A DNA stretch of 37,061 nucleotides from Methanobacteriota archaeon (GTDB lineage: Archaea; Thermoplasmatota; Thermoplasmata; Methanomassiliicoccales; UBA472), in the NCBI GenBank assembly GCA_021372315.1, contig JAJFUT010000080.1, positions 1 to 37,061 on the forward strand, in the 5' to 3' direction. Both the position numbers and the translations under genes were made by a program. Numbering within the stretch: the first letter of the stretch is position 1; each line of letters starts with the position of its first letter. Under the pieces are notes generated by a model. The model worked only from the letters and a program-made list of their open reading frames with translations, was not told the DNA's origin and made no database searches. This document shows positions 5,070-34,889 of the stretch, piece after piece.

Positions 5070-5714
5070 TCACTCCCAATATGTCAACTTGCGGATCTTG
5101 GATTCGCCCAGTAATCGACGGGACGTCTCCCATGACCTGCGGGTATAGGGCGGTAAATCCCCCTTCTCATTTATCCACCTTTTTATGAAATCGATGGTGA
5201 CCTCGTCGGCGGGATACCCGCTGCCGACCGGGCAACCCAAGGACCTTTCGATCTCTCGGACCATCGAATCGCGCGCGACCTTGGCGATGATAGACGCCGC
5301 CGATACGACAGGATATCTGTCGTCGGCCTTGTGCTCACAGACCATCCTGGGATGGTAATCGATGCTCGCGACGATGAGCGACTCGAAATGGCTCTCGCTC
5401 GCATCGCAGGCGTCTATGTAGACATCGCTGGGGCGGAGCGACATGATGAGATCGGAGAACCTCTCGATCTCCAGCTCGTTCAGCGACCGCTCGCACCCGC
5501 GGGCGTCTATCGTCTCGGCGTCGATCGCCCTTGTCTCGACGCGCGCGACCTTCCTGATCTCGGCGGCCAGCTCCTCTCTTCTGGACGGCGTCAGCTTCTT
5601 CGAGTCCTTGACGCCCATCTCCTGGAGAGGGCGGTCGTCGTCCATCATGACGGCGGCCACCACCAACGGACCGATGACCGGCCCTCTGCCGGCCTCGTCC
5701 AACCCGCATATCAC
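5070..5714 (-). CDS. rnhB: Ribonuclease HII
   Basis: A 214-residue RNase HII, which cleaves the RNA strand of RNA:DNA hybrids and removes single ribonucleotides embedded in DNA. The N terminus has the 'GLDEAGRGPVIGPLVVAA' motif with catalytic Asp-Glu (D6, E7). Further signatures are 'VKDSKKLTPSRREELA', the acidic 'VYIDACDA' strand and 'HKADDRYPVVSAASIIAKV', all typical of archaeal/eukaryotic type 2 RNase H. Length matches archaeal RNase HII (~200-230). The symmetric TTTATAAA about 24 bases upstream of the ATG suggests a leaderless transcript. A separate RNase HI domain is encoded at 33084-33908, so the organism has both types. Confidence 0.95.
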   Translation of the reverse strand: MICGLDEAGRGPVIGPLVVAAVMMDDDRPLQEMGVKDSKKLTPSRREELAAEIRKVARVETRAIDAETIDARGCERSLNELEIERFSDLIMSLRPSDVYIDACDASESHFESLIVASIDYHPRMVCEHKADDRYPVVSAASIIAKVARDSMVREIERSLGCPVGSGYPADEVTIDFIKRWINEKGDLPPYTRRSWETSRRLLGESKIRKLTYWE

Positions 5715-33083: not shown

Positions 33084-33908
33084 ATGCGTTTCGTACTGAG
33101 GGGAAAGATCCACCGCGCGACCATCACCGAGAGGCATCCCGATTATGTCGGGAGCATAGTGGTGGACCCCGTCCTGCTCAAGCACACTGACATTTGGCCG
33201 GGCGAGAGGGTCCTCGTCTCGGACGCCGACAACGGCGCGAGGTTCGAGACGTACATCTTCGAGGGGGAGCCGGACTCGGGCATCATCTCGGTCAACGGCG
33301 GCGCAGCCCACCTGGTCAAGGAGGGCGACAAGGTCATCATAATGGCCTTCGAGCTGACGGACCACCCGATAGACCCGAAGGTCATCATCGTGGATGGGAA
33401 GAACAAGTTCGTGAAGAACATGTCGTACTCTTCCCCTCCCGCACCTCCGGCGCCCACCATCGGTCACATTTCAACATCGGATAAGAAGAAATTGAAGCTG
33501 TACTCGGACGGCGGGTCCAGGGGGAACCCGGGAAAGGCCGCCTACGCCTTTCTGATATGCTCTGAGGACGACAAGATCGTCAAGAAGGGATCGCGGTTCC
33601 TCGGAACCATGACGAACAACGAGGCCGAATACCATGGCCTCATCGCTGCCTTGAAGGAGGCGAGGTCCATGGGCGCGACCCACGTATCGGTCACCATGGA
33701 CAGCGAGCTCGTCGTCAAACAGGTGAAGGGCGAATATAGGATGAAGGCAGATAACCTGAGGCCGCTCCTCGATGAAGCTAGGGCGCTCCTGGGTCAGTTC
33801 ATTGGACATGATATTAGGAACGTCCCGAGGGAGAACGAGATGATCTCCAAGGCGGACGATCTCGTCAACGAGGAGTTGGACCTGATGTCTCAAAAGACCA
33901 AGCTTTGA
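33084..33908 (+). CDS. PanD (aspartate 1-decarboxylase) - RNase HI fusion protein
   Basis: A 274-residue two-domain protein. Residues 1-113 match PanD: K8 and H10 in 'RGKIHRATITE', self-cleavage site G23-S24 in 'DYVGSIVVD', R53/T56/Y57 in 'GARFETYIF', and N71 in 'ISVNGGAAHL'. In PanD, cleavage at Gly-Ser produces the pyruvoyl cofactor that decarboxylates aspartate to beta-alanine for CoA. A Pro/Ser linker (114-134) follows. Residues 135-268 are RNase HI with acidic residues D142 ('YSDGGSRGNPG'), E182 ('NNEAEY'), D206 ('TMDSELV') and D258 ('SKADDLVNEEL'). There is no stop or frameshift between the halves. The ATG is the natural PanD start. Upstream, 44 bases separate it from the ABC operon. 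Confidence 0.88.
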   Translation: MRFVLRGKIHRATITERHPDYVGSIVVDPVLLKHTDIWPGERVLVSDADNGARFETYIFEGEPDSGIISVNGGAAHLVKEGDKVIIMAFELTDHPIDPKVIIVDGKNKFVKNMSYSSPPAPPAPTIGHISTSDKKKLKLYSDGGSRGNPGKAAYAFLICSEDDKIVKKGSRFLGTMTNNEAEYHGLIAALKEARSMGATHVSVTMDSELVVKQVKGEYRMKADNLRPLLDEARALLGQFIGHDIRNVPRENEMISKADDLVNEELDLMSQKTKL

Positions 33909-33970: not shown

Positions 33971-34047
33971 GGTGCGAGCGGGCCGATGGCTCAACTCTCC
34001 TCCTAATAGAGTTGCATTTCTTCCCCCCATCTCATCGGCCCCGCACC
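33971..34047 (+). ncRNA. Probable structured small RNA with anti-Shine-Dalgarno-like loop
   Basis: About 77 bases that fold strongly: GGTGCG (33971-33976) pairs with CGCACC (34042-34047); after a three-base AGC bulge GGGCCGATG (33980-33988) pairs with CATCGGCCC (34033-34041); inside, CAACTCT (33992-33998) pairs with AGAGTTG (34008-34014). The apical loop CCTCCTAAT (33999-34007) repeats the 16S rRNA 3'-end anti-Shine-Dalgarno sequence CCUCCU, and the 18-base 3' side of the internal loop (34015-34032) contains a run of six C. No ORF covers it and no tRNA, C/D-box or H/ACA signature was found. TATA box and palindrome upstream support an independent gene. Extent of the 3' end is uncertain; a TTTT at 34074 may end the transcript. 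Confidence 0.65.
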
Positions 34048-34142
34048 TAGTATACCGCTTCCTTGAGCCAACGTTTTAATGAACCCTAGACATATGGCAA
34101 TAGGTCCTGCGAATTTTGTTCCGGGACCGAGAGCTTGATGAG

Positions 34143-34889
34143 ATGAAGCGAATAGGTTGGTTCACGACGGCCCGGGGTCTCGGTTCGATGAACCTGTTCA
34201 GGACTGTTCTGAACAGAATAGACCAGGGGGACATCAATGGCGAGATCGCCTTCATGTTCATCAACAGGGAAGTCAAGGGCAACGACAACAGGAGGCTGAT
34301 GGTCCAGATGGCGAAGGACCGAGGCATCCCTGTGATCATCCTTCCCTCGGACGGGTTCAGGCAGGACCTCAAGGAGAAGGACATGGCCCTCTGGAGGGAC
34401 GCCTACGGCAAGGAGATGCGAGCGATGATCGCGGATCATCCCATGGACTTCGGGGTGCTTGCCGGTTACATGCTCATCCTTGACCCGCAGACCTGCAGGG
34501 AGAACGTCCTGATCAATCTGCATCCCGCGCTTCCCGACACCTATAAGGGCACGTGGGAGGAGGTCGTCCAGAAGGTCGTCGAGAACAGGGACGACAGATA
34601 CGGAGCGACGGTCCATGTCTGCACCCCCGACCTCGACAGGGGCGACACGATCGCCTACGATTCGTTCGATATCAAGGCTTTGAGGGCGAGGTCCGTCAAT
34701 GACGATGAGCTTCGGAAGCTCGTCAGGGCCGAGGGCGTCCGAAGGGAGGCCCCCCTGCTCATGAAGGTCGTCGAACTTCTAGCTAAGGGGGACATCGTCA
34801 TCAGGGACGGCCACACGTACGATCGGTCGGGCAGGTCGCTGAAGGAGCCTCAGTGCCTTGCCGAAGAGGTCGACCGTTCGTTGTCATGA
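34143..34889 (+). CDS. PurN-like formyltransferase family protein
   Basis: A 248-residue protein with a formyltransferase fold. Catalytic N-x-H is seen in 'LINLHPALPDTYKGTWEE', and the Asp in 'GATVHVCTPDLDRGDTIAYD', corresponding to N106/H108/D144 of E. coli PurN. 'DFGVLAGYMLIL' also fits. The N terminus ('RIGWFTTARGLGSMNLFRTV') deviates from GAR transformylase and lacks the clear phosphate loop 'SGxGSNLQAL', and a C-terminal extension (~185-248) is added. It could act on a substrate other than GAR. ATG at 34143 matches where relatives start; a TTG at 34116 is possible. Ends 12 bases before the convergent hisS. Confidence 0.78.
   Translation: MKRIGWFTTARGLGSMNLFRTVLNRIDQGDINGEIAFMFINREVKGNDNRRLMVQMAKDRGIPVIILPSDGFRQDLKEKDMALWRDAYGKEMRAMIADHPMDFGVLAGYMLILDPQTCRENVLINLHPALPDTYKGTWEEVVQKVVENRDDRYGATVHVCTPDLDRGDTIAYDSFDIKALRARSVNDDELRKLVRAEGVRREAPLLMKVVELLAKGDIVIRDGHTYDRSGRSLKEPQCLAEEVDRSLS

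Follow-up and report, generated by a model that had tools for sequence, protein, structure and literature searches.

A real PanD–RNase HI fusion gene in Methanomassiliicoccales, probably derived from coupled neighbouring genes

The joining of RNase HI to an enzyme of cofactor synthesis has a described example in Actinobacteria, the protein RNase HI-CobC (Rv2228c / MSMEG_4305; PRK07238), which like the protein considered here combines an RNase HI domain, a variable linker and a cofactor-synthesis enzyme. In mycobacteria this linker is highly variable and the domains are functionally dissociated in vivo, and the authors ascribe the fixation of the fusion to drift (PMC7466739). Its partner domain is CobC of the B12 pathway and lies C-terminally. 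In contrast, the fusion described here carries PanD of the CoA pathway at its N-terminus, belongs to an archaeal host and represents an independent architecture.

Two further systems offer points of comparison. Stand-alone class II PanD, which is independent of PanZ/PanM, shares with the fusion the domain, the active site and the Gly-Ser site as well as a genomic setting in which no PanZ was found, and differs by the C-terminal RNase HI that is found on the fused protein. The RNase HI of Halobacterium (4e19) is 42% identical to the RNase HI domain of the fusion in a structural alignment. It also has a region preceding its RNase HI (the match covers residues 69-197 of 199), but unlike the N-terminal half of the fusion this halobacterial region showed no PanD match in the sequence search.

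The fused gene lies in a window of 37,061 nucleotides, the whole stretch of DNA that was analysed, from a genome of the order Methanomassiliicoccales (referred to as G000). The ORF (33084-33908, forward strand) starts with ATG, encodes 274 amino acids and contains no internal stops. The initial annotation had read it as a complete PanD joined to a complete RNase HI, and Pfam, AlphaFold2 and Foldseek agree on this point. Residues 1-113 (33084..33422) form the PanD domain, with a Pfam match to PF02261 over residues 2-109 (E 5.8e-36, 123.3 bits against a cut-off of 25, profile positions 3-114 of 115). The NCBIfam model TIGR00223 scores 104 bits against an equivalog cut-off of 106 over profile positions 3-117 of 126. 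Residues 135-274 together with the stop codon (33486..33908) make up an RNase HI domain of archaeal type, complete at about residues 135-266, which is matched in Pfam by PF13456 (RVT_3; residues 142-262, E 1.6e-17, 64 bits against a cut-off of 21.6) and PF00075 (residues 135-216, E 1.2e-9, 38.9 bits against 25.8). The same domain matches PRK07238 (E 5.4e-33, 114.8 bits against a cut-off of 326, profile positions 3-137 of 378); a CobC/acid phosphatase domain is absent from the ORF in the Pfam and NCBIfam scans.

Both active sites are retained, as had been proposed. In the PanD domain K8, H10, Y21, R53, T56, Y57, N71 and G72 are present together with G23-S24, the predicted self-cleavage site (codons 33150-33155), and the catalytic and cleavage residues are near invariant among 56 PanD homologues. 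The RNase HI residues D142, E182, D206 and D258 are likewise conserved in 51 homologues, one of them truncated. Between the domains lies a linker rich in Pro and Ser (residues 114-134, 33423..33485), which had also been recognized initially and for which pLDDT is mostly below 50.

The AlphaFold2 model was built from an alignment of 11 rows, in which in-frame stops of split relatives were read through for alignment only. It has a mean pLDDT of 88; values exceed 90 over the greater part of each domain and drop below 50 in linker residues 116-132, which are predicted to be disordered. A pTM of 0.54 is consistent with two rigid domains whose relative placement is not fixed in the model. In Foldseek comparisons the PanD half reaches a target-normalised TM score of 0.91 against solved PanD structures, with Mycobacterium tuberculosis PanD (2c45) as the closest and further matches to Escherichia coli entries. 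The RNase HI half reaches 0.94-0.95 against its closest solved structures, the RNase HI domain of Rv2228c (3hst), to which it is 40% identical in the structural alignment, and 4e19. Judged from sequence and model, the ORF is thus predicted to encode two complete enzymes held together by a floppy linker of about 20 residues.

Why should these two enzymes be joined? The initial annotation saw no functional reason, which overlooks how the two genes are arranged in relatives: nearly throughout the order panD and rnhA are neighbours, and as a rule their ends touch or overlap. Matches were found in 130 of 147 genomes of the order, and 108 panD loci were read. At 94 of these panD is followed immediately by rnhA on the same strand, with the two fused in three cases and unfused in 91. 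In more than half of the unfused pairs (56/91) the genes touch or share a few bases (-8 to +5 nt), frequently as TGATG or ATGA; 21 pairs are separated by gaps of 6-60 nt and five by longer ones, and in the remaining nine panD overruns the rnhA start in another frame. These long out-of-frame overlaps, in which the stop at the junction is lost, occur at L106 and L107 (genomes G035 and G036), L048, L058, L062, L063, L070, L074 and L077.

Ten split pairs share one frame, and in nine of these only one stop codon lies between the two domains. At one locus (L005, genome G126) panD is separated from rnhA by a lone in-frame TAG, and the frame is open across the gap. Methanomassiliicoccales are known for the use of pyrrolysine, and this TAG could allow facultative read-through.

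At 14 of the 108 loci rnhA was not found beside panD. Ten of these belong to a single genus (g7), where rnhA stands apart from panD in all ten genomes read and is located elsewhere in the genome for most. The others (G027, G016, G090 and G031) have a contig end near panD, lack a detected rnhA or, in G031, hold a second panD copy. G031 has two panD copies (L099 and L224), of which only L224 adjoins rnhA. A sample of 390 genomes of the phylum yielded no adjacent pair outside the order; one of these genomes (G355) has two matches, with rnhA not beside panD on its short contig.

In archaea, translation is coupled by short gene overlaps, and these are enriched where the products are subunits of complexes (PMC10666635). 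Since panD and rnhA are adjacent and mostly abut or overlap throughout almost the whole order, a fusion needs a change at the junction only. The unfused relatives, including a third member of the genus of G000 (G135), keep gene order and strand, as is the case for fusions of operon neighbours. The joining of coupled neighbours, an ordinary evolutionary explanation, is therefore the most likely one.

The fusion itself recurs. Fused genes were found at three of the 108 panD loci, in G000, in its congener G136 and in G040, which belongs to a different family. G136 is a single contig of 1.82 Mb and carries a full-length fusion of about 70% protein identity, while panD and rnhA are still split in G135. 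Relatives searched for an equal fusion are thus not all split. The RNase HI tree groups G000 and G136 as sisters (bootstrap 98, SH-aLRT 67) and places G135 and G130, in which the genes are split, next to them. On both trees the fused state must change two times or more, so the fusion in G040 is a separate event; the PanD branch of G040 is long, and the title of its contig states a coverage of about 5.9x.

Comparison of the two congeners also indicates how the fused gene has been maintained. Their linkers look homologous (SYSSP..AP and SYTSP..AP), differ by one whole codon and are 40% identical, that is, they are diverging. At codon positions 1, 2 and 3 the PanD parts differ at 9, 10 and 60 sites and the RNase HI parts at 31, 31 and 80, a pattern that points to purifying selection on both domains within the fused frame; synonymous sites are saturated, so that a reliable dN/dS figure is not obtainable. 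A scan for start codons found none that is conserved within the linker, and an in-frame ATG at the end of PanD in G000 (M113) is Ile in G136. At the level of sequence this favours synthesis of the fused ORF as one polypeptide.

A PanD–RNase H fusion is not reported in the literature searched, and the domain architecture is apparently undescribed so far. No match spanning both domains was found outside the order in the 390-genome phylum sample. In a scan of prokaryote contigs the bacterial candidate among the matches listed (L125, matching query residues 36-266) consists of RNase HI only, and PanD was not found in it. The fusion thus adds the combination of a pyruvoyl PanD with RNase HI to the known domain architectures.

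The initial annotation also regarded PanD as uncommon in archaea. Within Methanomassiliicoccales, this does not apply: PanD is near universal and probably replaces the missing MfnA. The beta-alanine enzyme of Thermococcus is a homologue of glutamate decarboxylase with a structure distinct from that of the bacterial one (PMC6650551). The corresponding model for MfnA, TIGR03812, scores above cut-off in one of 61 genomes of the order (G031), and the archaeal phosphopantothenate synthetase (PPS) family, a consumer of beta-alanine, is present in G000. With MfnA missing and the archaeal PPS present, PanD is probably the source of beta-alanine here. The methanogens of this order are not known to use methanofuran, and MfnA may have been lost for this reason. 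A search of the literature returned nothing relevant on aspartate decarboxylase in Methanomassiliicoccales. What emerges is a panD-rnhA pair conserved across a methanogen order in which the usual archaeal enzyme for beta-alanine is mostly missing. A PanZ gene was not found in the G000 genome; class II PanD zymogens mature without PanZ (PMC4537548), and its absence is consistent with a PanD of this class.

Searched with the RVT_3 RNase H model, the genome gives no match other than the fused RNase HI. A gene for RNase HII lies in the same window (5124-5708, reverse strand), and RNase H function therefore does not depend on the fusion alone.

Taken as a whole, we consider it probable that this is a real fused gene derived from coupled neighbours, an origin for which functional coupling is not required. 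In the ancestor of the two fused species of the genus, the stop/start overlap of adjacent and probably translationally coupled panD and rnhA genes would have been lost, and about 20 in-frame codons gained at the junction would now form the linker. The product would be synthesised as a single chain, in which the PanD part would cleave itself between Gly23 and Ser24, yielding a short beta chain plus an alpha chain with an N-terminal pyruvoyl group and a C-terminal RNase HI. Assembly of the PanD tetramer would then leave four RNase HI domains flexibly tethered, and the initial annotation had already drawn these consequences for alpha chain and tetramer. The steps of self-cleavage and tetramer formation are likely by analogy with PanD biology, and we infer translation as a single chain, both activities and no functional coupling between them. 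A purely neutral view may nevertheless fall short, as the long-lived adjacency and at least two fusions hint at a functional tie. The separation of the two genes in g7 is a further point against the proposed reading. The fused genes of G000 and G136 and the split pair of G135 provide a natural comparison to separate a change of function from fixation by drift.

This hint can be taken further. The fusion could work as a unit, in which the PanD tetramer serves as scaffold for a tetravalent RNase HI with higher avidity for hybrids, or in which CoA or aspartate exerts feedback on RNase HI; on balance we regard this as unlikely. The gene overlap throughout the order would then reflect a complex of PanD and RNase HI, and adjacency in 94 of 108 loci, the repeated origin of the fusion (at least two times) and the enrichment of short overlaps for subunits of heteromeric complexes (PMC10666635) all speak for it. 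Yet in the ten g7 genomes read the two genes are apart, and the adjacent pair was not found in the phylum sample outside the order. The linker, moreover, is long, variable and predicted to be disordered, with domain placement not fixed in the model (pTM 0.54), and the parallel case of RNase HI-CobC shows no functional association in vivo (PMC7466739). That a physical or regulatory complex of PanD and RNase HI exists across the order, maintained through coupled translation and turned into a covalent link in some lineages, is in our judgement equally improbable. If true, a self-cleaving PanD tetramer would scaffold four RNase HI domains and possibly link the removal of RNA:DNA hybrids to CoA supply.

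It is also quite improbable that RNase HI additionally, or mainly, arises as a free protein through internal initiation or proteolysis in the linker, which would make the fused ORF of little consequence for the cell. The predicted disorder of the linker and the in-frame ATG of M113 in G000 would permit this, but the replacement of M113 by Ile in G136 and the lack of a conserved start codon in the linker argue against it and in favour of a single polypeptide, as noted above. An assembly or sequencing artefact that deleted a stop between two genes is barely credible: the G000 assembly comprises 127 contigs, most relatives are split and the independent case of G040 sits on a low-coverage contig (~5.9x), but the separate one-contig G136 shows the full-length fusion with a homologous linker differing by a whole codon, which refutes an artefact within the genus, and the gain of about 20 codons relative to G135 is more than a single base error could produce. 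The initial annotation had left open a chance join, an assembly error or a real protein; recurrence of the full-length fusion in the single contig of G136 excludes the first two, and a real fused ORF under purifying selection is what stands.

The surroundings of the fused gene hold two further features. A gene of the formyltransferase-N type (34116-34889, forward strand) is present in G136 and was not found at the equivalent place in G135. Between it and the fusion, with hisS following on the other side of the formyltransferase-type gene, lies an RNA-like element of about 78 nt (33971-34047, forward strand) that begins 63 nt past the stop codon of the fusion and is recognized by covariation. 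Its closing stem has 14 pairs, nine of them with compensatory changes, and its loop contains the conserved sequence CUCAACUCUCCUCCU. None of 500 shuffles attained any of the measures, and slid pairings are much worse. The element has no match in Rfam and may represent a family of small RNAs or cis-elements; it is not needed for explaining the fusion.

With a covariance model, the element was found in 38 of the 147 genomes of the order. In the genomes for which rnhA coordinates are listed, one copy follows rnhA on its strand at a distance of up to about 500 nt. The same placement holds in two g7 genomes (G137 and G146), though rnhA is parted from panD there. Copies also occur at a second site, where all eight examined lie just upstream of a gene for a protein of 441-462 amino acids, and the four of these proteins that were scanned are all archaeal-type CCA-adding enzymes.
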